From positions 2,976,001 through 3,040,000 of the forward strand of contig NZ_CAAHFH010000001.1 in assembly GCF_900890705.1 (NCBI RefSeq): 64,000 bases of DNA, written 5' to 3'. Position 1 is the stretch's first letter, and each line of letters starts with the position of its first letter. This document shows, piece by piece, positions 4,498 to 33,469 of the stretch. The notes beneath the pieces are model-generated. The model was not told the DNA's origin. It worked only from the letters and a program-made list of their open reading frames with translations, and made no database searches. A program made the translations under genes and the position numbers. The DNA is from Pontiella sulfatireligans. Its GTDB lineage: Bacteria > Verrucomicrobiota > Kiritimatiellia > Kiritimatiellales > Pontiellaceae.

Positions 4498-4527
4498 TTC
4501 AATTTTCCCATTTCAGATTTCAAGTTT

Positions 4528-17142: not shown

Positions 17143-17275
17143 TTTGCTCGTTCCCTTGAAAAAATGAACGCAGAAGCTACCCAACCCCGCTCCAAAGGTC
17201 AAGGTTCCACACCTTCAGCAAATGGACTCCTGCAAAAGGAAAAAAGCGAGCCTCTCAAATGTTCGCATTTTCTTG

Positions 17276-17303
17276 CTAGATTCCCATTAAGATTTTGTTA
17301 GGT
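17276..17303 (+). promoter_or_regulatory. Candidate Pho box upstream of first Na/Pi symporter
   Basis: Three motifs CTAGAT (17276), TTAAGA (17287) and TTAGGT (17298) start exactly 11 bases apart, fitting YTAR plus seven free bases. The same 11-base phasing occurs upstream of four other genes in this phosphate region. It ends about 40 bases before the start codon. The match is weaker than at pstS. Confidence 0.6.
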
Positions 17304-17344
17304 TCACCGCGCATTCCAAAAACAACCAGAACCGGGAGAGGATA

Positions 17345-19060
17345 ATGAACGTAAGTTTCCTGCAAATTGCACTAAATGTAGTGGGAGGATTGGGTATTTT
17401 CCTCCTGGGAATGAAACACATGTCGGAAGGCCTTCAGGCTGTATCCGGCGACCGTTTGCGCAAAATTATCAGCGTCGCCACCAACAACCGGGTCATGGGT
17501 GTGCTCATGGGCATTCTGGTTACCTGTCTGGTACAATCCAGTTCGGTTACCACCGTAATGGTTGTCGGCTTTGTTAACTCCGCCATCATGAACCTGATGC
17601 AGGCCATCGGCGTCATTCTCGGAGCAAACATCGGCACAACGATTACCGGCTGGATTCTGGTGCTGAACATTGGCAAATGGGGACTTCCAATCCTTGGAAT
17701 TGCAGCATTCTTTTTCCTCTTCTCTAAAAGCGAGCGTATCCGCTATATCGGCATGACCATTATGGGCATCGGCATGGTCTTCTTCGGACTTGAACTGATG
17801 AAGAACGGATTTAAGCCACTACGCTCCATGGAAGAATTCAGCGCCTGGTTCCAAACCTTTCACATCACGTTGGATGGAGGAATTTTCGCAGCATATGGTG
17901 ACATCATCAAATGCGCCCTCGTCGGGATGGTGCTGACTATGATTGTGCAGTCTTCTTCGGCAACACTGGGCATCACGATCGGCCTTGCAGCCACCGGTGT
18001 GATTGAGTTCCAAACCGCCGCCGCCCTAGTGATGGGCGAAAACATCGGAACCACCATAACTGCCCTATTAGCCTCTATCGGCACAACAACCAATGCCAAA
18101 CGGGCGGCCTATGCCCACTTCTTCTTTAATGTTCTGGGAACCATCTGGTTTATTGCCCTATTCCCGATTGCCATAAAAGGGCTTTCGGCCCTGGTTGCCT
18201 CCAAAACCGGATTTAACCCACTGGACATCAGTATTGATTCGATGGATGAAAAGGAGTTCGGACTGGTCATTACCTCAGGAATTGCTCTTACTCACACCAC
18301 GTTCAACGTGGCGAACGTGCTTATCTTCCTGCCATTCATCGGCTTTCTGGCCAAATTTGTTACCTGGTTGGCTCCGGAAAAAGAGACGAAAGAATCCGCA
18401 CACCTCACCTATCTGGATATTCGCATGCTCGACACCCCGACATTGGGTATTGTTCAGTCGCAGGGACAGCTCAACTTCATGGCTGAGAGCGTGGAAGGCA
18501 TGATGGATCAGTTGAAGGAATGTCTCGGCGGAAAGGCAACGACAGCAATCGAAAGCAAAATTTTCCACCGCGAGGAAATCCTCGACAACGTCCAGAAGGA
18601 AATCTTCCTGTTTCTCAGCAATATGGTTTCGGGACAGGTTCCGCACGAGGTCACCACCAAGGCCCATATGCAGATGCGTATCGCCGATGAATACGAGTCG
18701 CTCTCCGACTACATCGCAAACGTGCTAAAAGGGATCAAGAAAATGGAGCAAAACAAACTCCACCTCGACGGCCCCGCCAAAGACAAGCTGCTGGTGCTCC
18801 ACGAGAGGGTTGCTTCGTACATCGCTACGGTCGATCAGCACATGAAGGACGAAAACGCGGACCACCTTGCCTGGGCCAACACCGAAGGCGCGGCCATCGG
18901 GAAGCTCATGAAGGAAACGCGCCGCGAGCATCTCGCCCGCCTGCAGAAAGAGGAGGTTTCGCCCTACTTCAGCCTGGCCTACACCGACATGCTCAACTTC
19001 TACCGCCGCATGAAAGACCACGCCCTCAACATTGCAGAGGTGGTCTCAGGCGACAAATAA
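17345..19060 (+). CDS. Na/Pi cotransporter with C-terminal PhoU-like domain (first copy)
   Basis: An inner-membrane sodium-coupled phosphate importer of the NptA/YjbB type, 571 residues. The two inverted repeats of this family are seen as QSSSVTTVMVVGF (64-76) and QSSSATLGITIGLA (202 onward), each with a following GANIGTT or GENIGTT motif. About eight membrane segments fill residues 1-340. The remaining ~220 residues are helical, with repeated acidic patterns like PhoU (LSDYIANVLKGIKK, FYRRMKDHALNIAEVV). GGGAGAGG precedes the ATG. It is followed by a terminator and a close paralogue, and a Pho-box-like repeat lies upstream. Confidence 0.92.
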   Translation: MNVSFLQIALNVVGGLGIFLLGMKHMSEGLQAVSGDRLRKIISVATNNRVMGVLMGILVTCLVQSSSVTTVMVVGFVNSAIMNLMQAIGVILGANIGTTITGWILVLNIGKWGLPILGIAAFFFLFSKSERIRYIGMTIMGIGMVFFGLELMKNGFKPLRSMEEFSAWFQTFHITLDGGIFAAYGDIIKCALVGMVLTMIVQSSSATLGITIGLAATGVIEFQTAAALVMGENIGTTITALLASIGTTTNAKRAAYAHFFFNVLGTIWFIALFPIAIKGLSALVASKTGFNPLDISIDSMDEKEFGLVITSGIALTHTTFNVANVLIFLPFIGFLAKFVTWLAPEKETKESAHLTYLDIRMLDTPTLGIVQSQGQLNFMAESVEGMMDQLKECLGGKATTAIESKIFHREEILDNVQKEIFLFLSNMVSGQVPHEVTTKAHMQMRIADEYESLSDYIANVLKGIKKMEQNKLHLDGPAKDKLLVLHERVASYIATVDQHMKDENADHLAWANTEGAAIGKLMKETRREHLARLQKEEVSPYFSLAYTDMLNFYRRMKDHALNIAEVVSGDK

Positions 19061-19083
19061 GGAATAAACATTCCTGTTTACGC

Positions 19084-19116
19084 AAAGGCTCTTCCGGGAA
19101 CGGGAGAGCTTTTTTT
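19084..19116 (+). terminator. Terminator after first Na/Pi symporter
   Basis: GCTCTTCCG (19088-19096), loop GGAA, then CGGGAGAGC (19101-19109) and seven T. It begins 24 bases after the stop, so the two symporter genes are separate transcription units. Confidence 0.85.
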
Positions 19117-19156
19117 GCACCTGAGCCGTCCGCAATGGAAACGCCAGCATAATTGA

Positions 19157-19184
19157 TTAGCAAACGGTCAGGATTTTGTTAGTT
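19157..19184 (+). promoter_or_regulatory. Candidate Pho box upstream of second Na/Pi symporter
   Basis: TTAGCA (19157), TCAGGA (19168) and TTAGTT (19179) are spaced exactly 11 bases apart. The stretch from the third repeat to GCGCATT downstream is similar to that before the first symporter (ATTTTGTTAG, then GCGCATT), with the same distance to GCATT (13 bases from the last repeat start), suggesting shared control or a duplicated promoter. Confidence 0.6.
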
Positions 19185-19215
19185 TCTTTGCGCATTTTCA
19201 ACTGCGGGGGAAAGC

Positions 19216-20892
19216 ATGGAGTGGCACGCGATTCAGGATATCCTTTTCAAGGTCGTCGGGGGACTCGGCATCTTTTTGCTGGGCATGAAATACATGTCGG
19301 AAGGCATGCAGGCCGTGGCCGGGAGCCGCCTGCGCAAGATGATCAGCGCCGTAACCGACAACCGCTTCGCCGCGTGCGCGATCGGCACCCTGATTACCGG
19401 CATTGTCCAGTCGAGCTCGGTAACCACGGTGATGGTGGTCGGATTCGTGAACAGCGGTGTCATGACCCTGATGCAGGCGATCGGCGTAATTCTCGGCGCA
19501 AACATCGGCACAACCGTAACCGCTTGGATCATTGCGCTTAAGATCGGAAAATTCGGGCTGCCCGTGCTTGGAGTGGCTGTCTTTTTCTTCCTGTTTTCCA
19601 AAAAGGAGCGCGTGCGCTACACCGCCATGGCACTGTTGGGCGTGGGCATGGTTTTCTTCGGACTCCAGACCATGGGCGGCGCATTCAAAACCCCGGAAGT
19701 CAACGAATACCTCAGACAGGCCTTTTCCGTCATGAACGGAACCACGATCCCGGGCGTGCTTAAATGCGCCTTCTTCGGCTGCTTGGCCACTATGATCGTG
19801 CAGTCCTCCTCGGCCACGATCGGCGTAACGATTGTTTTAGCGCAAGGGGGCATCATCGACTTCGGCACGGCGGCGGCGCTGGTGCTCGGCCTGAACATCG
19901 GCACCACCATCACCGCCTTCCTCGCCTCCATCGGCACCTCTACCAACGCCAAACGCGCGGCCTACGCCCACATTATCTTCAACGTCATCGGAACACTCTG
20001 GCTCATCCCCATCTTTTTTTCCTATGTAAAAGGCATCGACTGGATCTTCGGCCACGTCCATGGGTTCATGGCAAAGAATCCCGAGATGGCCGACGACGTC
20101 ACGGCAAAGATCGCCTTGGTGCACACGGGCTTCAACCTCATCAATACCATCATCTTCCTGCCGCTAATGAAACCGCTCGCCCGCTTGGTTGAATGGCTCG
20201 TCCCCGAAAAGAAGGCCGACGAAATCAACCACCTCGCCTACTTCGACGTCCGCATGCTCGACACGCCGGCGCTCGGCATCGTGCAGTCGAAAAAACAAGT
20301 GCTATTCATGGCGGAGAGCGTCGAAAAGATGGCGGAATGGCTTGGCGAAGTGCTTGCCAGCAACGAGCAGCTCGACGAGCTTGAAAGCAAGATTTTCCAC
20401 TACGAAGGCATTCTCGACAACGTGCAGAAGGAAATCGTGGTATTCCTGAGCGAAATGATGACGGGCCAAGTGACGCACGATGTGATGGAAGAGGCGCGTC
20501 GCCAAATGCGCTTGGCCGATGAGCTCGAAAGCCTTAGCGACTACCTCATGAATGTCCTCAAAGGGCATGTGAAACTGCGGACCAACCAGCTGACGGTCTC
20601 GGAAAAAGGCCGCGCAGAACTTATTGACCTGCACAACAAGGTCTTCGATTACATTAAGATGGTAAACAATGCCGAGCGCAACGAAAACAAGGATATCCTT
20701 GGCCGGGCGCAGACCGACAGCGATGTCATCACGCGCCAAATGAAGGAATACCGGCGCCTGCACCTGCTGCGTCTATCGGAAAGCAAGTCCTCCCCGCTGC
20801 ACAGCCTGGTCTTCACCGACATGCTCAACGACTACCGCCGCATGAAAGACCATGCCCTCAATATTGCCGAAGTCGTGGCCGGGGAAAAATAG
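19216..20892 (+). CDS. Na/Pi cotransporter with C-terminal PhoU-like domain (second copy)
   Basis: A paralogue of the upstream gene, 558 residues, with the same architecture: QSSSVTTVMVVGF and QSSSATIGVTIVLA in the two transport repeats, GANIGTT and GLNIGTT motifs, and a helical PhoU-like C-terminus ending YRRMKDHALNIAEVVAGEK. The two proteins agree over most of their length, including identical stretches such as LDTPALGIVQSKKQ against LDTPTLGIVQSQGQ, so they arose by tandem duplication. GGGGGAAAGC precedes the ATG. It has its own Pho-box-like repeat. Confidence 0.92.
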   Translation: MEWHAIQDILFKVVGGLGIFLLGMKYMSEGMQAVAGSRLRKMISAVTDNRFAACAIGTLITGIVQSSSVTTVMVVGFVNSGVMTLMQAIGVILGANIGTTVTAWIIALKIGKFGLPVLGVAVFFFLFSKKERVRYTAMALLGVGMVFFGLQTMGGAFKTPEVNEYLRQAFSVMNGTTIPGVLKCAFFGCLATMIVQSSSATIGVTIVLAQGGIIDFGTAAALVLGLNIGTTITAFLASIGTSTNAKRAAYAHIIFNVIGTLWLIPIFFSYVKGIDWIFGHVHGFMAKNPEMADDVTAKIALVHTGFNLINTIIFLPLMKPLARLVEWLVPEKKADEINHLAYFDVRMLDTPALGIVQSKKQVLFMAESVEKMAEWLGEVLASNEQLDELESKIFHYEGILDNVQKEIVVFLSEMMTGQVTHDVMEEARRQMRLADELESLSDYLMNVLKGHVKLRTNQLTVSEKGRAELIDLHNKVFDYIKMVNNAERNENKDILGRAQTDSDVITRQMKEYRRLHLLRLSESKSSPLHSLVFTDMLNDYRRMKDHALNIAEVVAGEK

Positions 20893-20961
20893 CCGGATGC
20901 ACCCTCCCCATAAAAAGCCCCCGCCCACACTTCTCAAACATTAAACACTGCCCACTAATAT

Positions 20962-20989
20962 CTAACGGCCTCCTAATACTCTCCTAACA
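20962..20989 (+). promoter_or_regulatory. Candidate Pho box upstream of porin
   Basis: CTAACG (20962), CTAATA (20973) and CTAACA (20984) start exactly 11 bases apart; an additional CTAATA at 20955 is out of phase. The last two repeats resemble those before pstS (CTCCTAACATT in both). It lies about 140 bases upstream of the porin start. Confidence 0.72.
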
Positions 20990-21131
20990 TTCGGAATTTA
21001 CTTTTTCGCACATGCAAAGGAAAAAACTGGAATGGCGAGCTCGGAATCTCCGGGACTGAAAAGGTGCCTTCCGCTTTCCTTTGCTGCACATTTATAACGA
21101 AACGTATAACTCCAACGAGAGGATGAATAAG

Positions 21132-22301
21132 ATGAATAAAAAACACATAGCTATCATAGCACTCGGCCTTGCGGTATCCGCATCGGCCGCATTTGCAGAA
21201 GAAGCAGTCGCACAGGTTCCCGCAGAAGCGGCCGAAGCGGCCTCCGAAGAGTCGATTTACGACAAAATATGGGGTGCGGCTGAATTATACAAAAACAACG
21301 ACGGAAAAGTTCTCCAAAGCCTGGCCTTTACCGGACGCTTGCAGGGCGACGCCGTCAACTTCCAAAACGAAGACTCCTCCCATGACGATACAGACTGGAG
21401 ACGTCTGCGCCTCGGTTTCAAAGCCAAGGTATTCGACGATTTCACCCTGCATAGTGAAATGGACCTGAACATGAACGAAGCAGACTCCGACTCATGGGAT
21501 AAATTCTACAAACGCCTGACCGACTCCTACCTTAAATGGGCCCCTTCCAAAGATTTGAGCCTAAAAGTGGGCAAACAGTCCGCCGGCTTCACCCTCGACG
21601 GTGCAACCTCGTCCAAAAAGCTCATCGTTCCGGAACGCAGCATCGTGGCCCGAAACATCTGGTTCGGCACCGAGTATTTCACCGGCGCATCCGTGACGGG
21701 GAAAAACAATGATTGGTCCTACAACGTAGGCGGTTTTTCGTCCAGCGGCGAAGATGAGTTCGGCCACTTTGACAGCGGCTACTTTGCCCTGCTGTCCGCC
21801 GGCCACACGATCGGAGAGGATGGATCGCTTCGCCTCGACTACGTGTATAACGACCCGGATTACAGCACCGACTACAGCGTGGGCACCAGAAACCTCAAAC
21901 ATGTTGTCTCCCTCGTCTATAAAGACATGCTGAACGAAAAGCTTGGATTCTGGTCCGACATTTCCTGGGCGCAGGGCATCTCCGGCCAAAGCGATCTGGT
22001 CGGCATCGACCTCATGCCTTTCTACAACTTAACCGAAGAGCTTCAGTTGGTTCTTCAGTATGCCGGCGTTTCCAGTCTGAACAACAAATCGGATGTCAAC
22101 ATGGCGCGCTATGCCAGCAAGAATTCCGGTCAGAAGGTTGAAACAGCGCACAACCTGCTGCTGGGCTTCAACTGGTACCTCTACGGCCACAAGCTGAAAT
22201 GGCAGAATGCGATCGAATACAACCACGGCGACCGCTTGGCTGACGGAGGAGGCACCTACAAAGGATACGGCCTCACCTCCGGACTCCGCCTCAGCTGGTA
22301 A
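21132..22301 (+). CDS. Phosphate-selective-type porin (OprO/OprP-like)
   Basis: An outer-membrane beta-barrel of about 389 residues. The start at 21132 gives a normal signal peptide (MNKKHIAIIALGLAVSASAAFA) and has GAGG nine bases upstream; an upstream ATG at 21123 is less likely. The mature protein has alternating hydrophobic strands such as LRLGFKAKVFDDFTLHSEMDLNMNE and WAPSKDLSLKVGKQSAGFTLDG, and ends GLTSGLRLSW with a terminal aromatic residue as barrels do. The LKVGKQ pattern is characteristic of the porin O/P family. Gene position and the upstream Pho-box-like repeat support anion, probably phosphate, uptake; specificity is inferred. Confidence 0.8.
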   Translation: MNKKHIAIIALGLAVSASAAFAEEAVAQVPAEAAEAASEESIYDKIWGAAELYKNNDGKVLQSLAFTGRLQGDAVNFQNEDSSHDDTDWRRLRLGFKAKVFDDFTLHSEMDLNMNEADSDSWDKFYKRLTDSYLKWAPSKDLSLKVGKQSAGFTLDGATSSKKLIVPERSIVARNIWFGTEYFTGASVTGKNNDWSYNVGGFSSSGEDEFGHFDSGYFALLSAGHTIGEDGSLRLDYVYNDPDYSTDYSVGTRNLKHVVSLVYKDMLNEKLGFWSDISWAQGISGQSDLVGIDLMPFYNLTEELQLVLQYAGVSSLNNKSDVNMARYASKNSGQKVETAHNLLLGFNWYLYGHKLKWQNAIEYNHGDRLADGGGTYKGYGLTSGLRLSW

Positions 22302-22330
22302 GGCGACGCGCACACCGCACAACCGAATCA

Positions 22331-22357
22331 GGGGCTCCCATCCGGGAGCCCTTTTTT
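22331..22357 (+). terminator. Terminator after porin
   Basis: GGGCTCCC, loop ATCC, GGGAGCCC followed by six T. A very strong hairpin about 30 bases after the porin stop. Confidence 0.92.
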
Positions 22358-22687
22358 GTTTCACAAACCAGCAGATCGAAAGTCGGTTCCACAGAGATTC
22401 CCTCCATTATGTTTGCATGAGGAAAAACTTGTGCACCATGGCCGGCGAAAACACCGGCCCTCCGCACTTCTGGAGCGCTCCTCCGCTCCCTTGAAGAAAT
22501 CTTAACAATGCCGTTTTCACTCTATTACAGGGGTTTATTCCAATTTTATGTAAATTCCGCCTTATTCTGTCCATCTTTCAGCATCCAGCGACGTTCTCAC
22601 TAGCAATACATGATAATATTTGTCATATTTTGCTTTTTCATCTTTTTTACGATGAAAAGAATCCATCCAACGCCAGGAGAGATACAA
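22358..22687 (+). other. Leader region of the RND operon with two inverted repeats
   Basis: No gene is seen here. A GGCCGG/CCGGCC hairpin lies near 22440-22460. ATGATAATATTTGTCAT (22610-22626) is a near-perfect palindrome with one mismatch, a plausible repressor site 60 bases before the operon start. TTTTTCATC (22634-22642) and GATGAAAAG (22651-22659) form a second inverted repeat. I found no set of three 11-base YTAR repeats here, unlike the flanking genes. Confidence 0.5.
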
Positions 22688-23734
22688 ATGGAAAAGACCA
22701 TCCTTACAGCAGCAGGCATTCTCGCCGGCACACTGGCTTACGCCGCCGCGCCCGTGGAACTTGTACCCGTCCAAAAGAAGGATCTGGCCGTCACCACCAC
22801 CCAGCCCGTCAGCATCGAGGCCTTCCACACGGCCAGCATCGGCACCCGTGTTACCGGCTATGTGAAAGCCGTGCTCGTCGATATCGGCTCCCCTGTCAAG
22901 GCCGGACAGCCCATGGTGGCGATCGACGCCCCCGAGCTCGTCGCCGCCGTGAACGTGCTGCAAGCCGAGATCAAAGATCGCGAAGCCGCCCTCGCCGCCG
23001 CGCAGTCCGAACAAAAGCGGGTGAAAGCACTGGCCGACAAAGGCTCCATCACGGAAAAGGCGGCTCAAGAGGCCGATCTTCGCCTTCAGCAAGCCGCGGC
23101 GGCAAAAAGCGTCTCCGAGGCCAAGCTCGCAGAAGCCGAGCAAATGCTGGCCTATTCCAGCATTCCCGCCCCGTTTGACGGCGTTGTATCCATCCGCAGC
23201 GTCGACCCCGGCGATCTCGTTGCCGCCGACTCCGGCGCCGTACTCATCGAGGTCGCACAGCTCTCCTCCTTGCGCGTCGTCACCTACATCCCCGAGCGCG
23301 AAGCCGTCTGGCTCAACAACGGCGACCGCGTATCGCTGAGCTTCGATGCCTACCCCGGCCAGACGTTTTCAGCCAAAATTTCGCGTTCCGCCGGCGTGCT
23401 CGACAGCACAACCCGTCGCATGCGCACCGAAATCGACCTCGACAATGCACAAGGCCTGCTCTTCCCCGGCATGTATGGAAAAGTAACCGTTGAACTCGAA
23501 TACCGGCGCGACGCCCTCGTCCTGCCGGCCGGATCCGTTCGGCTGAACGACGGCGCACCGCACGTCTACGCCGTTGAAAACGGCACCGTCAAACGCCTGC
23601 CCGTTGCAACGGGAACCGATACGGGCACACAGATTGAAATCATTTCCGGGCTTTCGGGCAGCGAACAGATCGTGGCCAACAGCATTGGCCGCCTGCGCGA
23701 TGGCGACGCCGTAACCGTCAAGAGCCGCAACTAA
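22688..23734 (+). CDS. RND efflux periplasmic adaptor (membrane fusion protein)
   Basis: A periplasmic adaptor of 348 residues linking an RND pump to its outer-membrane channel. MEKTILTAAGILAGTLAYAAAP is a signal peptide. The barrel-sandwich half motifs are GTRVTGYVKAVLVDIGSPVKAGQPMVAIDAPEL and, after a helical hairpin (about 85-145), IPAPFDGVVSIRSVDPGDLVAADSG. The start at 22688 has AGGAGA upstream and gives the signal peptide; the open frame runs 26 codons further upstream. It is first of three genes with tight spacing. Confidence 0.92.
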   Translation: MEKTILTAAGILAGTLAYAAAPVELVPVQKKDLAVTTTQPVSIEAFHTASIGTRVTGYVKAVLVDIGSPVKAGQPMVAIDAPELVAAVNVLQAEIKDREAALAAAQSEQKRVKALADKGSITEKAAQEADLRLQQAAAAKSVSEAKLAEAEQMLAYSSIPAPFDGVVSIRSVDPGDLVAADSGAVLIEVAQLSSLRVVTYIPEREAVWLNNGDRVSLSFDAYPGQTFSAKISRSAGVLDSTTRRMRTEIDLDNAQGLLFPGMYGKVTVELEYRRDALVLPAGSVRLNDGAPHVYAVENGTVKRLPVATGTDTGTQIEIISGLSGSEQIVANSIGRLRDGDAVTVKSRN

Positions 23735-23747
23735 CCGGGAATTTCCA

Positions 23748-26700
23748 ATGCTTGTAAAATTTTCTCTTAAAAACTCCTATGCCGTTCTGGCGGCGGTGCT
23801 GGCGCTCGCCTTCCTCGGCTTTGCGGTCTACCCAAAGATTCCGACGGACATCCTGCCCAATTTCAATAAACCGGTGGTGATGAGCTACTATTCCTATCCC
23901 GGCCTCCCTACCGGCGAAATGGAAAAGTCGGTCTCCTCCCGCGTCGAGCGCGCCCTGACCCTCGCCGGCAAGCGCGAATCCATCGAAGCGCGCATCCTGC
24001 CGGGCGCGGCGCTCATCAAGGTTACCTTCCAGGCCGGCGCCGATCCGGGGCAGGCCATGAACGACATCATCAACTATGAAATGAGCGACCTCTTCCACCT
24101 GCCGCCCGGCATCGAGGTTCCGTTCACGATGCGTTCCGAGCCCGGCAACATGCCGGTGCTGCTTGCCGCCATCAGCGGCGAAGGGCTGAGCGAAACCGAG
24201 CTCTACAAAATCGGCTACTATGCCGTGCGCAACAAAATGGGCGGACTCAAGGGCGTACAGATCCCCCATCCGTTCGGCGGCAAGTTCCGCCAGATGATGA
24301 TTTATGTTGATCCCGACAAGCTCGCCTCCCACCACCTCTCCGCCGACGACGTCGTTAAGGCGATGGAAAAGGCCAACCTCGTGATGGCCGGCGGAACCGT
24401 CAAGATGGGCGCGCTCGACTACCAGGTGCATCCCGTCAACACCCTGCTGACCACGGCCGACATCGACAACGTTCCCGTCGCCGTGCGCAACGGCCAAACG
24501 ATCTACATCAAGGACATCGGCTACACCAAAGACGACGCCGCGCTGCAATACAACATTGTCCGCGTGAACGGCCTCCGCTCGGTCTACTGCCCGCTCCTGC
24601 GCGAACCCGGCGAAAACACCGTGCAGGTCGTCGACCGCATCCGCGAAGGCATCGCCGCCGAAGTGCCCAACATGAAGGCCCGCGGCGACATTCCGGAATC
24701 GACCGAAATCACGCTCGTGAGCGACCAGTCCACCTACATCCGCCAAGCGATGTCCGGCCTTCAGAAGCAGATTCTGCTCGGCGCACTGCTCGTGGTCGTG
24801 ATTGTTGTGCTGTTCCTGCGCAAGCTGCGCCCGTCGATCGCTGTATTGCTCATGCTCCCGCTCTCGCTGCTTTCGGGCATCCTCGGCTTCTACTTCACCG
24901 GCGAAACACTCAATGTGATGACCATCGGCGGTCTGGCCCTCGCGGTCGGCACCGTGGTCGACGCCGGCATCGTGGTGGTGGAAAACATCATGCGCCACCG
25001 CTCCATGGGCAAAAACGCCGTCGATGCGGCACGCGACGGAGCCGAAGAGGTTTCCATGCCGGTCCTCGCCGGCATCGTCACCACTCTGGCGGTCTTCATC
25101 CCCGCCCTCTTCCTGTCCGGCATGATCAAGTTTCTCTTCCTCCCGCTGGCGGCGGCCGCCGTGCTGACCATTGCCGCGTCCTATGTCATCGCCATGACGG
25201 TCGCGCCCGCCTTTTGCGCGCGCTTCCTTGGAAAGAACGGCAGCGAAACCCGCGTTGAACACAATCTGGAAGAGCGCATGTCCGAGCCCGCCACCTTCTA
25301 CCAAAAGCTGCTCTCCAAAGCGATGAAGTCGCGCTGGCTCACCATCGCCGTGATCGGCGGCGTTTCCCTGGCCTGCTTCCTCCTGCTTCCAATGGTTGGA
25401 AGCGAACTCTTCCCTGCAGTGGATGCCGGGTCGTTCGAGATCCGGGTCAAGACCGCGCCGGGCACCCGGCTGGAAAACACCGAAGCCCTCGTTGCCAGAA
25501 TTGAGGAGCATATACAGAAAACCATTCTGAAGGACGACATTAAGTCGATCATTTCAAACATCGGCATGCCGGTCGGCAAAGGCGCGGGCTTTTCCACCGT
25601 GCTCAGTTCAAACTCCGGCCCCGATACCTCCTTCCTGATCGTCAACCTTCAGGACAAAGGCCGGAAGAAGAGTGTGATGGACTATGTCAGTGAACTGCGG
25701 GAAGGGCTTGCCGAAGCCTTCCCGCACGAAAAGTTCCTCTTCGTAACCGGCGGCATCATTAATGCCACACTCAACGAAGGCGTTGCCGCTCCGATCGATA
25801 TCCAGATTGCCGCGGGCACGCTCGAAGCTTGCCGCGCCACCGCCGAAAAGATCGAACGGGCCGTCAAGGATGTTCCCGGCGCTGCGGACGTGCAGATTGC
25901 ACAGGCGCTGGACTATCCGCAGCTCGACATCGACGTCGACCGTGCCAAAGCAGCGCTCTACGGCCTTACGCAGGATGATGTGGCCCGCAATGTCGTGACC
26001 GCCTATGGATCGAGCATCGGCCTTAGCCGCATGATCTGGATCGACAAGGGCGGCGTCGATTTCTTTATCGGCATCCAGTACGAGGACAACGAAATCGAGT
26101 CGATCGAAGAGCTGAAGAATATTCCGCTGCCGGTTGAGATCGACGGCAGACATGCCTCGGTTCCGCTCTCAAGCGTTGCCACCATCCGCCGCGTGAACAT
26201 TCCCGGCGAGATTGCCCACTACAACATGTCGCGGGTGAACGACGTCTATGTGAACGTCGAAGGGCGCGATCTGGGCTCGGTGGTGAAGGATGTCGAAAAG
26301 GTGCTGGCCGGCATCGAGCTGCCCAACGGCGTGACGGTCAACCTGCGCGGCCCGGTGCAGTCGATGCGCGATGGCGCGTCGTCGCTGGGCTTCGGATTGC
26401 TTACGGCGATTGTACTGGTCTTCCTGGTGCTGATGGCGCAGTTCCGCTCGTTCTCTGAACCGCTGATCATCATGCTGGCCGTCCCGCTGGCGCTTTCGGG
26501 CGTGGCGGCGGCGCTGTTCATCACCGGAACCTACATTAACATTCAGTCGCTAATGGGCTCGCTGATGCTCGTCGGCGTGGTGGTGAACAACTCGATCCTG
26601 CTGGTGGAATTTGCCAACAAGCAGATGGATAAGGGGCACAGCCCATTCGAAGCGGCCTATGAGGCGGCGTGTGTTCGTCTGCGCCCGATCCTGATGACGT

Positions 26701-26879
26701 CGTTGACGATGGTTGCCTCGATGGCGCCGTTCGCCTTTAACTTTTCGATCGGCAACGAAGCGATGGTCCCGCTGGCCCGCGCGATGATCGGAGGCATGGC
26801 GGCCTCCACCATCCTGACCCTGTTCCTCGTGCCCTGCGTCTACACGCTGGCCAAGAAACATCAGCCCAAACGCATTTAA
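23748..26879 (+). CDS. RND efflux transporter permease
   Basis: A 1043-residue inner-membrane RND pump of normal length. Twelve membrane segments flank two large periplasmic domains. GGLALAVGTVVDAGIVVVENIMRH in segment 4 keeps Asp405 of the proton relay, but the neighbour that is a second Asp in AcrB-type pumps is Ala, as in heavy-metal-type CusA. PLSLLSGILGFYFTGETLNVMT and the second-half LMGSLMLVGVVVNNSILLVEF are family signatures. Substrate unknown. It starts 13 bases after the adaptor gene. The setting inside a phosphate gene cluster is unusual. Confidence 0.93.
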   Translation: MLVKFSLKNSYAVLAAVLALAFLGFAVYPKIPTDILPNFNKPVVMSYYSYPGLPTGEMEKSVSSRVERALTLAGKRESIEARILPGAALIKVTFQAGADPGQAMNDIINYEMSDLFHLPPGIEVPFTMRSEPGNMPVLLAAISGEGLSETELYKIGYYAVRNKMGGLKGVQIPHPFGGKFRQMMIYVDPDKLASHHLSADDVVKAMEKANLVMAGGTVKMGALDYQVHPVNTLLTTADIDNVPVAVRNGQTIYIKDIGYTKDDAALQYNIVRVNGLRSVYCPLLREPGENTVQVVDRIREGIAAEVPNMKARGDIPESTEITLVSDQSTYIRQAMSGLQKQILLGALLVVVIVVLFLRKLRPSIAVLLMLPLSLLSGILGFYFTGETLNVMTIGGLALAVGTVVDAGIVVVENIMRHRSMGKNAVDAARDGAEEVSMPVLAGIVTTLAVFIPALFLSGMIKFLFLPLAAAAVLTIAASYVIAMTVAPAFCARFLGKNGSETRVEHNLEERMSEPATFYQKLLSKAMKSRWLTIAVIGGVSLACFLLLPMVGSELFPAVDAGSFEIRVKTAPGTRLENTEALVARIEEHIQKTILKDDIKSIISNIGMPVGKGAGFSTVLSSNSGPDTSFLIVNLQDKGRKKSVMDYVSELREGLAEAFPHEKFLFVTGGIINATLNEGVAAPIDIQIAAGTLEACRATAEKIERAVKDVPGAADVQIAQALDYPQLDIDVDRAKAALYGLTQDDVARNVVTAYGSSIGLSRMIWIDKGGVDFFIGIQYEDNEIESIEELKNIPLPVEIDGRHASVPLSSVATIRRVNIPGEIAHYNMSRVNDVYVNVEGRDLGSVVKDVEKVLAGIELPNGVTVNLRGPVQSMRDGASSLGFGLLTAIVLVFLVLMAQFRSFSEPLIIMLAVPLALSGVAAALFITGTYINIQSLMGSLMLVGVVVNNSILLVEFANKQMDKGHSPFEAAYEAACVRLRPILMTSLTMVASMAPFAFNFSIGNEAMVPLARAMIGGMAASTILTLFLVPCVYTLAKKHQPKRI

Positions 26880-26896
26880 GTTCCGGAGATTGTAAA

Positions 26897-28246
26897 ATGA
26901 AAACCCATCTTATTACCTTCACTCTTGTTCTCGCGGCGGCCGCCCATGCGGAACCGCTGCTGATCGACCTGCCGACCGCCTTGCGGCTCGCCGACGAAAA
27001 GAACACCGACCTCGCCATCCAGGTGCAGCAAGTGGAGCTGGCCGAATTCGACAAGGCCGCGGCGTGGTACCAGTGGCTTCCGACAGTGCGCGTCGGCGCG
27101 AGCTACGGCTGGCAGAAGGGCCAGTTGCAGGAAACCGACGGCACCATGACTGACGTCGAGCGCAACTCGCGCTACGGCGGGCTGGGCGCCGGTGCTTCCG
27201 GTTCCGGCATGCCGCTGCGCCCCGGCCTTTCAGCCGGCGTCGATCTTTCCGCCGCTATTTTTGGGCCGCTAGCCGCCAAGCAGCAGTTTCAGGCGGCCAT
27301 GCTGGGCGAAGAGTCGGTTCGCCTTCGAGTGATGCTTGATGTGGCCTCGGCCTACTATGAATTGGTGCGGGCCTTCCGCGAACTAGAGATTGCCGAACTG
27401 TCCGCCGAAAATTCGGGAGCGCTGGCCAAGCAGACCGCCGACTTTGCCGCCAGCGGCGAAGGCCTCCAGGCCGATGCCGAACGGGCCGAGGTGGAATCGC
27501 TCATTCAACAGCAGCGGGTGGAGCTGGCACGGGAGCGTAAAGAAGGCGCTGCGGTCCAAATGGCACGCCTGCTTCGGCTCGACGATGCAGCGCAGCTCAC
27601 TCCAGCGGATTCCATGATTACGCCGCTCGCACTGATGGAGGCCGAGGCCGATCTCGCCGATCTGGTCTCGCGGGCACTGATGAACCGCCCCGAAGTCGGG
27701 CAGAACCGCGCGATCCGCGCCGCCGGAAAGGCCCAGCTTGATCAGGAGCGCTACGGCATTTTCCTGCCCAAGGTCGAGGTCGGCTACAGCTATGGCAGCT
27801 ATGGCGGCGGACAAGGTTCCGGAAACAGCGGCGACGATGAGCGCCACGACGTCTATGGAATGCTCTACTGGCAGTTCGACAGCCTCGGCCTGCGCAACCG
27901 CAACAACATAAAGAAACAGCGCGCCCTGATGAGCAAAGCCAAGGCCATGGAGGAACAGGCGCTGGTAGATATTGCGGCCGAAGTACGGATGGCCTATGCC
28001 CAGTTTTCAGGCGCGCAGCGCCAGCTCGGCCTCGCGAAGCGCGCCGTGGACAGCGCGCGGAAATCCTATGAGCTCAACAACGAACGCATCTTTGAAAACA
28101 GCGGACTGCCGCTCGAAGCACTGCAGTCGGTTAAAGCGCTAGCCGAGGCCGAATCGCTCTATCTGGCTGTGGCCACGAAATACAACATGTCGCAGCTGCG
28201 GCTGGTCTCCGCCACCGGCAAGGGCCTTTCCGCCCCGAAAGAATAA
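26897..28246 (+). CDS. TolC-family outer-membrane efflux channel
   Basis: A 449-residue outer-membrane factor. A signal peptide (MKTHLITFTLVLAAAAHA) is followed by LPTALRLADEKNTDLAIQ, the typical opening helix of the family. Long helices with heptad character (for example AEVESLIQQQRVELARERKE) form the periplasmic tunnel, and AYYELVRAFRELEIAELSAENS is a standard segment. It completes the tripartite pump with the adaptor and RND permease, 17 bases upstream. Confidence 0.9.
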   Translation: MKTHLITFTLVLAAAAHAEPLLIDLPTALRLADEKNTDLAIQVQQVELAEFDKAAAWYQWLPTVRVGASYGWQKGQLQETDGTMTDVERNSRYGGLGAGASGSGMPLRPGLSAGVDLSAAIFGPLAAKQQFQAAMLGEESVRLRVMLDVASAYYELVRAFRELEIAELSAENSGALAKQTADFAASGEGLQADAERAEVESLIQQQRVELARERKEGAAVQMARLLRLDDAAQLTPADSMITPLALMEAEADLADLVSRALMNRPEVGQNRAIRAAGKAQLDQERYGIFLPKVEVGYSYGSYGGGQGSGNSGDDERHDVYGMLYWQFDSLGLRNRNNIKKQRALMSKAKAMEEQALVDIAAEVRMAYAQFSGAQRQLGLAKRAVDSARKSYELNNERIFENSGLPLEALQSVKALAEAESLYLAVATKYNMSQLRLVSATGKGLSAPKE

Positions 28247-28254
28247 GCGGCCGG

Positions 28255-28295
28255 AGTTCCAATGGATGGAAGGCGTTGGAACTTACTGCTTTTTC
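28255..28295 (+). terminator. Probable terminator after the RND operon
   Basis: AGTTCCAA (28255-28262) and TTGGAACT (28276-28283) pair around a 13-base loop, followed by CTTTTTC about eight bases later. The T-run is somewhat distant from the stem, so efficiency is uncertain. Confidence 0.55.
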
Positions 28296-28303
28296 ATGCT
28301 CCG

Positions 28304-28331
28304 CTAATACCCTTCTAATCCGCTCCTAACA
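28304..28331 (+). promoter_or_regulatory. Candidate Pho box upstream of pstS
   Basis: CTAATA (28304), CTAATC (28315) and CTAACA (28326) start exactly 11 bases apart, the cleanest example in the window. Direct repeats with 11-base period are the known layout of PhoB and PhoP sites. It lies 64 bases upstream of the pstS start codon. Confidence 0.78.
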
Positions 28332-28394
28332 TTTCGTGCTCATCCTTTGGCCGTCGTTAATTAAGAAACGGCTAAACCAACAGGAGAATACGAT

Positions 28395-29210
28395 ATGAAA
28401 AAAACAGTTATCACCACGTTTGCAATTTGCGCGGCGCTCAGCACGCAGGCACAAAACAAAATCGCCATCGACGGCTCTACTACTGTAGGCCCCATCGCCA
28501 AGGCTTTCGCTGAATACTTCATGTCGGCCAACCCCGACGTGAACATTACCGTTTCCGAGTCCGGCAGCGGCAACGGCGCCAAGAGCCTCGTCAACAACAC
28601 CTGCGACGTAGCCGCCATGTCCCGCCCGATGAAGGATACCGAGTTCAAAGCCGCCGCCGACAAAGGCATCCAGCCGGTCGCCCACGTCGTCGCCCTCGAC
28701 GGCCTGCCGATTCTCGTCCACCCGTCCAATCCCGTTCAGGCCCTGACGGTTGAACAGGTCCGCAAGATTTACCTTGGAGAAATCACCAACTGGAAGCAGG
28801 TCGGCGGACCGGATAAAGCCATTGTCAGCATTTCGCGCGACACCAACTCCGGCACCTACGAAACCTTCGCCAAGCTCGTAATGAGCAAGCAGAAGATCCA
28901 CAAAAACTGCGAATACGTCGGCTCCAACGGCGCTATCCGCCAGCGCGTGCAGAGCACCCCGGCCGCCATTGGCTACGCCGGCCTCGGCTTCGTCGACAAA
29001 ACCGTGAAAGCCCTTAAAATCAACGGCATCTACCCGTCCGCAGAAACCGTGCAGACCGGTGAATACCCGATCGCCCGCCCGCTCTTCATGTACACAAACG
29101 CTTATCCGAAGCTAGGCTCCCCCCTCTACCGCTTCGTTACCATCCACCTCACCGAAGACGGACAGGAAATGGTTGAAGAAATCGGCTTCGTTCCGGTTAC
29201 TGCATACTAA
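28395..29210 (+). CDS. pstS: Phosphate ABC transporter substrate-binding protein
   Basis: A periplasmic phosphate-binding protein of 271 residues. MKKTVITTFAICAALSTQAQ is the signal peptide. IAIDGSTTVGPIAKAFAEYF and ESGSGNGAKSLVNNTCDVAAMSRPM carry the phosphate-binding loop residues of the PstS family; ISRDTNSGTYETF is the second ligand region. AGGAG precedes the ATG. A terminator after the gene separates it in part from pstC, so it is likely made in excess over the membrane subunits, as is usual for binding proteins. Confidence 0.96.
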   Translation: MKKTVITTFAICAALSTQAQNKIAIDGSTTVGPIAKAFAEYFMSANPDVNITVSESGSGNGAKSLVNNTCDVAAMSRPMKDTEFKAAADKGIQPVAHVVALDGLPILVHPSNPVQALTVEQVRKIYLGEITNWKQVGGPDKAIVSISRDTNSGTYETFAKLVMSKQKIHKNCEYVGSNGAIRQRVQSTPAAIGYAGLGFVDKTVKALKINGIYPSAETVQTGEYPIARPLFMYTNAYPKLGSPLYRFVTIHLTEDGQEMVEEIGFVPVTAY

Positions 29211-29234
29211 TGCAGCATGATTCGTGACGATTGA

Positions 29235-29260
29235 GGCGCGACCTGCGGGTCGCGCCTTTT
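29235..29260 (+). terminator. Terminator between pstS and pstC
   Basis: GGCGCGACC, a short loop, GGTCGCGCC, then TTTT. A strong stem with a short T-run, 25 bases after pstS, directly before the pstC Pho-box-like repeat. Confidence 0.8.
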
Positions 29261-29272
29261 CAACATACCCTT

Positions 29273-29300
29273 CTAACCCACCCCTAATCTTTCGCTAACA
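29273..29300 (+). promoter_or_regulatory. Candidate Pho box upstream of pstC
   Basis: CTAACC (29273), CTAATC (29284) and CTAACA (29295) start exactly 11 bases apart, matching the arrays before pstS and the porin. This gives pstCAB-phoU its own Pho-type promoter, 45 bases before the pstC start. Confidence 0.76.
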
Positions 29301-29344
29301 ATTCACCCCCACTATCGCCGCGTCTTTAAGAAATTCAGGAGTCT

Positions 29345-30490
29345 ATGAGCGCAAAATCTAATCAAAGCCTAATCATGAGCGATGCCGCCAGCCGACGGCA
29401 TCGGATGGCGACTCTGTTTGGCCAGTCCATTCTTTTCCTGATTACCTCGCTATCCACCTTAACGGTGTTTTTCATTTTCTATTTTATTCTGAAAGACGCG
29501 ATCCCTTTCTTCAAACTCGAAGGTTTCAAGGAGTTCTTCACCAGCGCACGGTGGTATCCTTCCGGCTCGCCGGCTGAATTTGGTGCGTTGCCAATCTTCA
29601 TGGGCACCGGCCTAGTCACGCTCGGCGCCGTGGTGGTGGCCGTTCCGCTGGGCATCGCCGCCTCGGTTTGCTTGAGCGACCTGCTCCCCTTTCACATTAG
29701 GCAGATTGTTAAGCCCATCATTGAAATTCTGGCGGCCATCCCCTCGGTCGCCTATGGTTTCTTTGCGTTGGTGGTTTTTGCCCCGATGCTGCAAAACCAT
29801 GGAGGCGCGATCCTCTCCGCAGGAACCTGGATGATTCTCGGTCCGATCTTTGCCCTGCTGGTGATTGTTATGGGCGACCTCACCATCGACAAGCTGCGCA
29901 ACAAGGTGAAAAATCCCAAGCTGGCCGGAGCGATTGTTTTTCCAATCCTTGGCATTCTGGCCTTCACCTTCATCTACCGTCTGGCCAGCCATCTGAGCGG
30001 CGTTGAAATCAGCAGCGGCACCAACGCGCTGAACGTGGCGGTCATCCTCGGCATCATGGCATTGCCCACGGTGGTGAGCGTTTCGGAAGATGCGCTCCAA
30101 GCCGCCGGACGCGAGTTGCGCGAAGGCTCCTACGCCCTCGGCGCCACCCGCGCGGAAACCATCATCAAAACCGTCATCCCCGCCTCGATCAGCGGCATTC
30201 TGGCGGCGGTCATTCTCGGCGTCATGCGCGCCATCGGCGAAACGATGGTGGTCTGGATGGCGTCCGGCAACGCGGCGCGCCTGCCGGACCCGTGGTACAA
30301 CATGCTCCAGCCCGTCCGCACCCTCACCGCCACCATTGCCGGCGACATGGGCGAGGCCGACCACGTCACCGGCTCCTCCCGCTTTCACGTCCTGTTCGCC
30401 ATGGCCTTCTGCCTGCTCGCCTTCTCCTTCATCATGAATCTCGCCAGCGAGCTCATCGTCAAGCGCTCGCGCAAGAAGCTGGGAAAATAA
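29345..30490 (+). CDS. pstC: Phosphate ABC transporter permease PstC
   Basis: An inner-membrane permease of the Pst phosphate importer, 381 residues. About six membrane segments; the ABC-permease coupling motif is seen as LREGSYALGATRAETIIKTVIPASISGI, followed by GVMRAIGETMVVWMASG, a PstC signature. The first segment is LFLITSLSTLTVFFIFYFIL. It is longer than the 319 residues of E. coli PstC. AGGAG lies just before the ATG; a second Met at residue 11 is a possible start. Confidence 0.94.
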   Translation: MSAKSNQSLIMSDAASRRHRMATLFGQSILFLITSLSTLTVFFIFYFILKDAIPFFKLEGFKEFFTSARWYPSGSPAEFGALPIFMGTGLVTLGAVVVAVPLGIAASVCLSDLLPFHIRQIVKPIIEILAAIPSVAYGFFALVVFAPMLQNHGGAILSAGTWMILGPIFALLVIVMGDLTIDKLRNKVKNPKLAGAIVFPILGILAFTFIYRLASHLSGVEISSGTNALNVAVILGIMALPTVVSVSEDALQAAGRELREGSYALGATRAETIIKTVIPASISGILAAVILGVMRAIGETMVVWMASGNAARLPDPWYNMLQPVRTLTATIAGDMGEADHVTGSSRFHVLFAMAFCLLAFSFIMNLASELIVKRSRKKLGK

Positions 30491-30563
30491 ACTGAAACGT
30501 GAAACCTGAAAATACAAACTTGGATTCTTCCGTGCATTCAGTGTCTTCCGTGGTTGAAAAAAC

Positions 30564-31910
30564 ATGAGACTAGAAACTAGAAAACTTTTGGACAAAGCCT
30601 TTTCCGGCCTCGGCATCATTGCCATCGGCGTCATGGCCATGGCGTTGCTGCTCATCCTGACGCCCATTGTCGTCCGGGGATCGAAGGCGTTTGTTTTTAA
30701 GGGAACGATCGAATTCCGCCGGATGATGCTGGAGCAGTTCGATCGCGGCGACCCCGATAAATTCAACCAAGAAGCGGCCAGCACGGCCGCCGCCCGCGCG
30801 CCCGTCTACCTCATGATGGAGGAGTTCGAAGCCGAGATGAAGGCGATGAAAAGCTCCGAGCGCCGCGAATACAAGGCTGCCTTCAAAGAGGTTGAAAAAA
30901 GCATCGAGACGCTGCTCGGACCGATCCCCGGCGAGCGCAAGCCCGTGCTGCTCCGTCAGCAATACGGCCAGACCCGCTGGGAGCGCACCTTGGTCAAACT
31001 GCACGAAGCGCTCTACTCTGAAGAATGGGACTATTCCAATGCCGACGCCATGGGCTTGCTGGTTGAAAAACCACGTGTGGAGCAGTTTATAGGCACCAAA
31101 CTTGAACCGATGTTCCCCTATCTGGAGGAGCATATCAGCGATATGATGTTGCCCAAAACCACGTTCTACTGGCGCTTCATCACCGATAAATCAAAAGACT
31201 CGCACATTTTTGGAGGCATCTGGCCGGAGGTGCTCGGCACCCTCTACCTCACGCTCGGCGCGATGATTTTCGCCATCCCCATGGGCGTGATTGCCGCCAT
31301 CTACCTTTGCGAATATGCCAAGGAAGGGCGCGTGGTCAGCTTCCTGCGCATCTGCATCAGCACGCTCGCCGGCGTGCCCAGCATTGTCTTCGGCCTCTTC
31401 GGCCTCGCCTTCTTTTTGAACACCATTCACGTGTCCAACTCCAAAAGCGTGCTGGCTGGATCGCTGACGCTTTCGCTGCTGATCCTCCCGACCATCATCC
31501 GCTCCTCGGAAGAGGCGATTCTCGCCGTGCCGCGCGCCTATAAAGAAGCCGCGCTCGGCCTCGGCGCCGGACGCTGGCACACGGTGATGAGCGTTATCCT
31601 GCCCGCATCCCTGCCCGGCATCCTGACCGGCATCGTCATCAGCATGGGCCGCGCCGCCGGCGAAACGGCTCCTATCATCTTTACCGCCGCGGTCAGCGTC
31701 GGCGCGCCGCTCAAGATTTGGGAAACGCTGAGTCAACCGACGCCCGCCCTGCCGTGGAACATTTACAACCTTTGCACCGAACACGAAGCGGTGGACGAAA
31801 TCCGGCACGTTCAATACGGCATGGTTTTCACCCTAGTGGCCATTGTGCTGCTCCTAAACCTGTTCGCCATCCTGATGCGCGCACGAATTTCCAAAAAATT
31901 GCGAGGCTGA
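30564..31910 (+). CDS. pstA: Phosphate ABC transporter permease PstA with large periplasmic insertion
   Basis: The second membrane subunit of the Pst importer. The permease core is residues ~220-448, with [32 protein letters not shown] as coupling motif and [15 protein letters not shown], diagnostic of PstA. Between the first membrane segment (about 15-38) and the core lies a charged helical stretch of roughly 170 residues ([28 protein letters not shown] and on), so the protein is 448 residues against about 296 in E. coli. A 73-base spacer precedes it and the ribosome site is weak. Confidence 0.93.
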
Positions 31911-31911
31911 T

Positions 31912-32733
31912 ATGACCGAAGAAATCACCATGAAGAAAATCGACACGTTCGCCGAACACGGCGACGACGGCGCGACGAACGAAACGCATATCGAAGCCAA
32001 GGACTTTTCCCTGTTTTACGGCGACTTCGAAGCCGTGCGCAAAGTCAGCATGGAAATCCCCAAGCAAAAGGTTACGGCCATGATCGGCCCAAGCGGTTGC
32101 GGCAAGAGCACCCTGCTGCGCTCCATTAACCGCATGAACGACCTCATTCCCTCCACCAGCGCGACGGGGGAAATGATTTTCGACGGACACAACATTTACA
32201 ACAAAAACATCGACGTCGTTACCCTGCGCGCCCGGGTCGGCATGGTGTTTCAGAAACCCAACGTCTTCCCCAAGTCGATTTTCGACAACGTCGCCTACGG
32301 CCCGCGCCTGCAGGGCACCAAGAACAAGCAGGAACTCAGCGAAATCGTTGAGCAGAGCCTGCGCAACGCCGCCATCTGGGACGAGGTGAAGGACCGCCTC
32401 ACCGCCAACGCCCTCGGCATGTCGGGCGGGCAGCAGCAACGCCTTTGCATTGCCCGCGCCCTGGCCATCAAACCGGAAATCCTGCTGATGGATGAGCCAA
32501 CGTCCGCGCTCGACCCCAAAGCCACCGCCAAGATCGAGGATCTCATCGGCGAGCTGCGCAACAACTACACCATCATTATCGTGACCCACAACATGCAGCA
32601 AGCCGCGCGCGTCTCCGACCTTACCGCTTTCATGTATGAAGGCGTGCTGGTAGAGTTTGGAAAGACAAAGCAATTGTTCACCAACCCGGACAATCCGCAG
32701 ACGGAAAACTATATTACTGGACGATTTGGTTAG
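31912..32733 (+). CDS. pstB: Phosphate ABC transporter ATP-binding protein
   Basis: The cytoplasmic ATPase of the Pst importer, 273 residues. Walker A is GPSGCGKST, the signature is [17 protein letters not shown], Walker B is [13 protein letters not shown], and the switch His is in [28 protein letters not shown] and [10 protein letters not shown] are PstB-specific. The ATG at 31912 has GAGG five bases upstream and starts one base after the pstA stop; a second Met at 31930 is possible. Confidence 0.97.
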
Positions 32734-32809
32734 TAATGCGTAACGAGTAATGCGTAACCGAGAATAGCACGCATTACGGATTACGGATTACGGATTACGG
32801 AGAAACCCC
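32734..32809 (+). repeat. Short-period repeat spacer between pstB and phoU
   Basis: The spacer holds two copies of GTAATGCGTAAC-like text (AGTAATGCGTAACGAGTAATGCGTAAC) and then four tandem copies of ATTACGG. It resembles spacers before DUF2442/argB (5401-5440) and lepA (14619-14665). It is not coding and shows no stable hairpin. Confidence 0.6.
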
Positions 32810-33469
32810 ATGGCAAAGCATTTGGAAAAAGAACTCGAGCGCTTGAAAAAGCTGATCTACACGCTCAGCGCACGAGTGGATGAAAACCTTGAGTTGTCGG
32901 TTAAATCGTTTCAGGAAAACGATCTCGACCTGGCGCAAAAAGTCATCGCCGACGACAAGATCATCGACGACATGGAAGTCGAGGTGGAAGAGGAATGCCT
33001 CAAGGCGCTGGCCCTATACCAGCCGGTGGCCATCGACCTCCGCTTCATCACCGCCGTCATGAAAATGACCAGCGACCTCGAGCGCATCGGCGACCTCGCC
33101 GCCGACATTGCCAAAAACGGCATCGCCATCAACAAGGCCCCTAAACCGAAGATCCCTCTCGACCTTCATCAGATGAGCTACCTCGTGAAGGCTATCGTCC
33201 GCAAAAGCCTCGATGCCCTAGTAAACATCGATCCCTATCTCGCCCGCGAGGTCATCAAGGACGATGCTGAAATCAATGCGATGAAGGCTGAAATGAAAGA
33301 TGAAATCGTGCAGGCGCTTCAACGCGAACCCGCACATGCAGAATCGCTCATCACGCTGCTGGCCATCACCCACCGCCTCGAGCGCATTGGCGACCATGCC
33401 TCCAACATTGCTGAAGATGTAATCTACATGGTCGAAGCGGAAATCGTCCGCCACCAGCCGGCCGAGTAA
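32810..33469 (+). CDS. phoU: Phosphate signalling protein PhoU
   Basis: A 219-residue all-helical cytoplasmic protein that links Pst transport to PhoR/PhoB signalling. Two repeated three-helix bundles carry metal-binding motifs: KVIADDKIIDDMEVEVEEECLKAL and MTSDLERIGDLAADIAKN in the first, VIKDDAEINAMKAEMKDE and RLERIGDHASNIAEDVIYMVE in the second. It is last in the pstCAB-phoU order and converges on the second porin gene with only 15 bases between. Confidence 0.95.
   Translation: MAKHLEKELERLKKLIYTLSARVDENLELSVKSFQENDLDLAQKVIADDKIIDDMEVEVEEECLKALALYQPVAIDLRFITAVMKMTSDLERIGDLAADIAKNGIAINKAPKPKIPLDLHQMSYLVKAIVRKSLDALVNIDPYLAREVIKDDAEINAMKAEMKDEIVQALQREPAHAESLITLLAITHRLERIGDHASNIAEDVIYMVEAEIVRHQPAE

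Follow-up and report, generated by a model that had tools for sequence, protein, structure and literature searches.

In a 64,000-nucleotide stretch of the Pontiella sulfatireligans genome (contig NZ_CAAHFH010000001.1, positions 2,976,001 to 3,040,000; this whole stretch is the window, to which coordinates refer unless stated otherwise), short YTAR motifs at 11-base spacing precede the genes of two Na/Pi symporters, a porin, pstS and pstC. A preliminary description had read them as five copies of one Pho box of new sequence, under the control of a PhoB- or PhoP-like regulator encoded outside the window. The question raised by this locus is whether these arrays are operators of such a regulator, whether all five are of one kind and how new the box is. 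Very probably, they represent a real and conserved operator array, of the ordinary Pho box kind, in a little-studied group of bacteria. The probability that the arrays are Pho boxes, predicted as operators of the PhoB ortholog of this genome, and that the island (C1:2993000-3009500) would constitute a PhoB regulon is estimated here at about 0.87.

On rereading the sequence, the coordinates of all five arrays hold. Three YTAR motifs exactly 11 bases apart are present in four of the five promoters, whereas the array at 19157 carries TCAG at its middle position (19168). YTAR itself was dropped as a motif, since it is its own reverse complement and conceals the orientation of the arrays, which therefore remained hidden in the preliminary description. 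Read as CTAAY, the arrays before the first porin (CTAAC/CTAAT/CTAAC, 20962..20988), pstS (CTAAT/CTAAT/CTAAC, 28304..28330) and pstC (CTAAC/CTAAT/CTAAC, 29273..29299) are direct three-unit boxes matching perfectly (15/15) on the plus strand, i.e., oriented with the gene. A weaker in-phase unit, TTCAT at 28293, lies beside the pstS array.

Both symporter arrays score best on the minus strand, against the gene. Before symporter 2 the minus strand reads CTAAC-N6-CTGAC-N6-CTAAT from 19182 to 19156, which corresponds to 14/15 or one mismatch. Before symporter 1 it reads CTAAC-N6-TTAAT-N6-CTAGC from 17301 to 17275, a weak array with two mismatches (13/15, or 14 if TTAAT is taken as a full match) and with a similar element in relatives. 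To count five equal arrays was thus an overstatement, since the array at 17276 is weak and the one at 19157 has a mismatched middle unit, and the opposite strand of both had been overlooked when they were put on a par with the arrays of pst and the porin.

The specificity of the pattern becomes visible at the level of the genome. With at most one mismatch, CTAAY-N6-CTAAY-N6-CTAAY occurs at four places in 7.4 Mb, and all four are in the island. Exactly two mismatches are found at 23 further places, three of them in the island (the array at 17275 and two register shifts); the 20 outside were taken as noise. The strict YTAR triple at period 11, which matches four of the five arrays of the window where shuffles predict 0.03, is present at 11 places in the genome, four of them within this 12-kb stretch. 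The remaining seven, whose surrounding open reading frames were judged by eye, were likewise taken as noise. An independent matrix, which draws on 52 distinct arrays from pstS and pstC upstream regions in relatives and leaves out the window, ranks the arrays at 29273 (33.8 bits), 20962 (29.1 bits), 28304 (23.3 bits) and 19156 on the minus strand (20.4 bits) as the top four in the 64-kb window. The array at 17275 on the minus strand follows with 8.9 bits, nothing but register shifts of these arrays ranking in between; below it, the best place of the window outside the island scores 5.9 bits.

The relatives were gathered by pstS matches (the 80 best of 180 loci) and include a Pontiella desulfatans metagenome-assembled genome, Pontiellaceae, Kiritimatiellales and others. 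The 200 bp before each gene were searched for triples of 14/15 or better at every period from 6 to 20, with the window excluded; rows sharing the same last 150 bases entered the counts a single time, and kinship was otherwise ignored. For the first porin (Porin_O_P family, PF07396; longest open reading frame 21081..22301, plus strand) an in-frame ATG at 21132 was also taken as the start. Direct triples at period 11 were found before 36 of 83 pstS, 16 of 41 pstC and four of five porin genes; in a separate survey, all five relatives in which the porin was found had a direct array of 14/15 before it. The 14 other periods gave 0 or 1 each for pstS, at most 2 for pstC and none for the porin, so that period 11 is the only one that stands out, and shuffled upstream regions averaged at most 0.15 per gene class. 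Arrays of 14 or 15 of 15 also precede pstS in loci labelled Lentisphaerae, Planctomycetota, Phycisphaerae and Riflebacteria, the labels being those of the deposited bins.

Location is equally specific. Inside the operons no direct period-11 triple precedes phoR (0/48), pstA (0/39), pstB (0/50) or phoU (0/41); these 178 regions together gave none in direct and one in inverted orientation (phoU). Nine genomes of the genus contain 32 places with at most one mismatch, of which 24 precede genes of the island.

A further regularity is found downstream of the arrays. Direct arrays of at least 13/15, here including those of the window, were surveyed for a downstream hexamer carrying A and T at its second and sixth positions. 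This hexamer follows after a gap of exactly 10 nt in all 18 pstC arrays (two of 20 were dropped, their downstream sequence being too short) and in 39 of 50 pstS arrays, and at every other offset tested it follows in at most four arrays. In the window, the -10-like hexamers CACTAT (29310..29315, pstC), CATCCT (28341..28346, pstS) and TACTTT (20999..21004, porin, with A and T at positions 2 and 6 like the pst promoters) lie on the plus strand exactly 10 nt past their arrays. An array followed by a -10 element is the layout expected of an activator standing in for the -35 element, as in the Pho promoters of E. coli. The absence of a -35 element at the arrays was judged by eye and is not reflected in a simple sigma-70 score, which does not set pst promoters (means 7.9 and 7.5) below symporter promoters (7.9 and 7.8). 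Between 17150 and 29400, a sigma-70 scan gave five sites versus 4.6 in shuffles and a terminator scan 16 versus 16.1.

Which protein might bind these arrays? The genome encodes eight Trans_reg_C proteins. One of these (L017, at C1:1564619) combines a Response_reg with a Trans_reg_C domain and is followed by the gene of a sensor kinase with HisKA, HAMP and PAS domains, as expected of a PhoB-PhoR pair; it is taken as the PhoB ortholog of the genome. In 29 of 47 genomes, the best match to it is found no more than 10 kb away from a symporter gene or a strict array. The regulator that had been postulated outside the window thus has a good candidate. The alignment places DVQIVGLRKK of this protein opposite DVHIRRLRKA of E. 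coli PhoB (1GXP), a helix which we take to be the recognition helix, and QIVGLRKK is nearly constant within the clade. We infer that this difference might underlie the use of CTAAY in place of TGTCA. Furthermore, a degenerate in-phase direct array of at least 13/15 precedes phoB in 13 of 19 close relatives, which suggests autoregulation.

Genome-wide specificity, the period of 11 in relatives, the fixed -10 distance and the linkage to PhoB make a Pho box very likely. Under this reading, the kinase would phosphorylate PhoB when phosphate is scarce. Phosphorylated PhoB would then line up head to tail on the direct repeats, taking the position of a -35 element, and would recruit RNA polymerase to the -10 element ten bases downstream, by which the outer-membrane porin and the Pst transporter would be switched on. 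PhoB probably binds before the symporters as well, where an array of this kind is present on the opposite strand.

A number of observations weigh against this assignment. The candidate phoB lies 1.43 Mb from the island, and linkage was not seen in 18 of the 47 genomes: in 15 no partner was listed on that contig, and in three the distance is large (this genome, G032 with 0.53 Mb and G053 with 2.05 Mb). Since phoB is found within 10 kb in the 29 genomes mentioned, the distance here probably reflects a lineage rearrangement. In a small number of genomes the protein found nearby is a different PhoB-like one. None of the 19 close relatives has a phoB array at 14/15 and period 11, nine of these regions also score at an inverted period of 10, and the phoB promoter array of this genome is weaker than those of its close relatives. 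As many as 47 of 83 pstS and 25 of 41 pstC upstream regions of relatives stay below 14/15. In a set of 58 genomes, 50 places match the strict YTAAY triple and 23 the reversed pattern, so that beyond the island the pattern is near its control, and the 32 places in the nine genomes of the genus compare with 26 for the control. At up to two mismatches the reversed pattern even exceeds CTAAYx3 in this genome (63 versus 27 matches), and two-mismatch matches therefore carry no weight alone. The array at 17276 is by itself at chance level and rests on position and homology.

The box had also been called new. Its nearest known relative is the cyanobacterial SphR/PhoB box, described as three tandem 8-mers with 3-bp linkers, in triples such as CTTAATTCtatCTTAATTTcgaCTTAATCA, before pstS, pstC and phoA (PMC1906773). 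For Synechocystis, the PhoB site is described as a tandem direct triple with the core TTAA, in which mutation of any core reduced or abolished binding in vitro (PMC11126600). Both boxes consist of three direct repeats at an 11-bp period before pst genes. The core, TTAA in the cyanobacterial box, is TTAA-like here, with CTAA in the direct arrays of the window and CTAA or TTAA in those of the relatives. In contrast, the half-site here is mostly CTAAC or CTAAT instead of (C/T)TTAAC, and inverted arrays are present before the Na/Pi symporters. A further trait, surveyed in the present arrays, is the very regular -10 element at 10 nt. Judged from the half-sites, which are one base apart, the box is a close variant of the cyanobacterial triple and not a new kind; a [CT]TAA triple at 11 bp is nearly that box, and the earlier claim of a new sequence is not upheld.

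The more distant relatives fit this picture. The PhoP box of Bacillus subtilis, set beside it by description, consists of tandem repeats with a TTAACA-like half-site, in contrast to CTAAY. The E. coli Pho box shares the 11-bp direct repeats bound by a regulator of the OmpR/PhoB family and differs in its half-site, given as CTGTCAT beside GTTCACC for S. coelicolor (PMC4415409), as well as in the recognition helix of its regulator. For Desulfovibrio vulgaris a PhoB box is described that is also a direct repeat before pst genes, with the different half-site (c/t)GT(n)AC (PMC3333781). Among the papers listed in searches of the open-licence literature, none was seen to describe such a box in Kiritimatiellota, Verrucomicrobia or Planctomycetes, which is weak evidence of absence.

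A special focus has to be on the two symporter genes, nptA1 (17345..19060) and nptA2 (19216..20892). Both lie on the plus strand and encode Na/Pi cotransporters with a PhoU domain (Pfam Na_Pi_cotrans and PhoU). In Pontiella-type genomes symporter 2 follows symporter 1 in tandem, and at a threshold of at least 13/15 its array is inverted in four of seven cases and direct in none; no divergent gene is present in these genomes to account for the inversion. Symporter 1 is ambiguous, with six inverted and five direct arrays among 15 at 13/15, and six also at period 7, an ambiguity that stems from several relatives in which a direct pair comes before the inverted element. These restricted counts supersede those of 10/28 and 4/12 inverted arrays, which include order-level arrays. 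Of 22 Pontiella-type symporter promoters, 11 keep a homologous YTAR pair 22 bp apart; by rows the count is 12 of 22, with one pair located elsewhere. In the present genome symporter 1 is divergent from a ribulose-phosphate epimerase gene, so that its array could serve that gene too.

By analogy with the pst promoters, weak possible -10 hexamers are CATTCC (17312..17317) and CATTTT (19193..19198), both on the plus strand and 10 nt past the arrays of symporter 1 and 2, respectively. Among Pontiella symporter promoters a possible -10 element is present at this distance in six of 14, with at most three at other offsets and no clear -35 element by eye. A test for antisense firing of the inverted Pontiella arrays found a -10 element in seven of 14, but in eight of 14 at another offset.

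In order-level relatives, six of seven symporter promoters with TTGACT show TTGACT-N17-TA(A/C)AGT with the -35 element overlapped by an in-phase four-unit array. A divergent Porin_5 gene is present in five of these six loci (L167, L169, L176, L177 and L178) and also in L174; in L183, the sixth, no Porin_5 gene was found. All six arrays have the porin-type -10 element at 10 nt, with hexamers such as TAGGTT, and it is the fourth in-phase unit of the Pho array of the porin that overlaps the -35 element of the symporter. An order-level "inverted symporter array" was therefore ruled out as support for the inversion, as it is the direct array of the divergent porin. Literature searches gave no match for inverted Pho boxes and nothing usable on which strand the PhoP repression sites of B. 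subtilis occupy.

What the symporter arrays do can be answered with less confidence than for pst and porin. Judged from the promoters, PhoB may co-activate the symporters, for which the chances appear evenly balanced; that it represses them is a somewhat weaker candidate. In its fullest form, the latter idea holds that in Pontiella the strand of the array sets the sign of control, direct arrays activating the porin and pst genes and inverted ones making PhoB a repressor of both symporters, or leaving these driven by an unknown geometry. This is tentative and falls short of an even chance. It would fit the inversion at both symporters of this genome and at symporter 2 of the Pontiella-type relatives. 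PhoB bound to the order-level array could block the -35 element which that array overlaps, but the array belongs to the divergent porin, as its -10 element indicates. The literature points both ways: Pit of S. meliloti is described as controlled reciprocally to Pst (PMC8829014) and both PhoB and PhoP as capable of repression (PMC10294691, PMC6232261), whereas S. aureus nptA is reported to be induced through PhoPR at low phosphate (PMC13170248). Moreover, the possible -10 elements without a clear -35 element make the Pontiella symporter promoters look activator-dependent, although the sigma-70 score does not separate them from the pst promoters, and the orientation at symporter 1 is ambiguous in relatives. 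The elements at 17275 and 19156 might also be no PhoB sites, and instead a conserved promoter or leader element of two paralogous genes with a coincidental YTAR spacing. The poorly conserved middle unit, small insertions in several relatives, the absence of the homologous pair from half of the promoters and the weakness of the site at 17275 would agree with this. Nevertheless, it is unlikely, as the array at 19156 is among just four genome-wide places with at most one mismatch, and inverted triples of 14 or 15/15 recur before symporter 1 in four relatives, 43 to 46 nt ahead of its start, and before symporter 2 in two, at a distance of 35 to 36 nt.

For the arrays as a whole, another OmpR-family regulator could take the place of the L017 ortholog, perhaps a second PhoB-like protein. 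With eight Trans_reg_C proteins, including a PhoB-like paralog (L019) that is 52% identical to L017, other candidates exist, and in relatives such proteins can be close by: among 14 non-best matches examined, G002 (contig 121 near 3580-5125) has a 50% paralog at 0.9 kb from the pstC array, G027 a 41% paralog at 4.4 kb from a symporter gene, G031 (contig 60 near 14680-15451) a PhoB-like protein at 0.7 kb from a strict array and G032 one at 16 kb. In G031 and G002 these may possibly be a second phosphate regulator. This alternative is nonetheless quite improbable, since the L017 ortholog is the near one in most of the genomes compared and is followed by its kinase gene, the phoB genes of close relatives have a degenerate in-phase array of their own, and the L019 paralog lies on another contig than the island. 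Finally, a chance alignment of short AT-rich words might be suspected behind so short a pattern, whose two-mismatch matches are no more frequent than those of the control. This can practically be dismissed for the arrays of the porin, pstS and pstC, as the specificity of the period, the fixed -10 distance and the independent matrix all contradict it. PhoB operators thus stay the preferred explanation.

The rest of the island shows the following organization. On the plus strand, pstS (28395..29210, PBP_like_2) encodes the phosphate-binding protein and is followed by pstC, pstA, pstB and phoU (29345..33469); before pstA, pstB and phoU of relatives no direct array was found at 14/15. Between pstB and phoU lies a repetitive stretch (32730-32808) consisting of GTAATGCGTAAC... 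and then four head-to-tail ATTACGG, which is unusual for an intergenic gap within a pst operon. An HlyD-AcrB-OEP efflux gene set is located between the first porin and pstS (22610-28246), and a second Porin_O_P porin (33485-35014, minus strand) is convergent with phoU; among the top 14 matrix matches of the window there was neither a site before the efflux set nor an array at this porin. In two congeners (G001 and G009; L202:1501-3025 and L234:1-1500) an array stands before a gene in which an arsR-type part is joined to a low-molecular-weight phosphatase domain, and a second pstS-like gene comes next. Here, PhoB control of an arsenic-type island is possible.

With these arrays, the Pho regulon of a Pontiella-like bacterium can be defined at the level of sequence, and this definition can serve as a template for its neighbours. 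The arrays also suggest a wide distribution for the TTAA/CTAA Pho box that is known from cyanobacteria. As an oddity, the inverted arrays of the symporters bear on whether the strand of an operator sets the sign of control by PhoB. If this is true, a single regulator would exchange the phosphate uptake systems of the cell under starvation.

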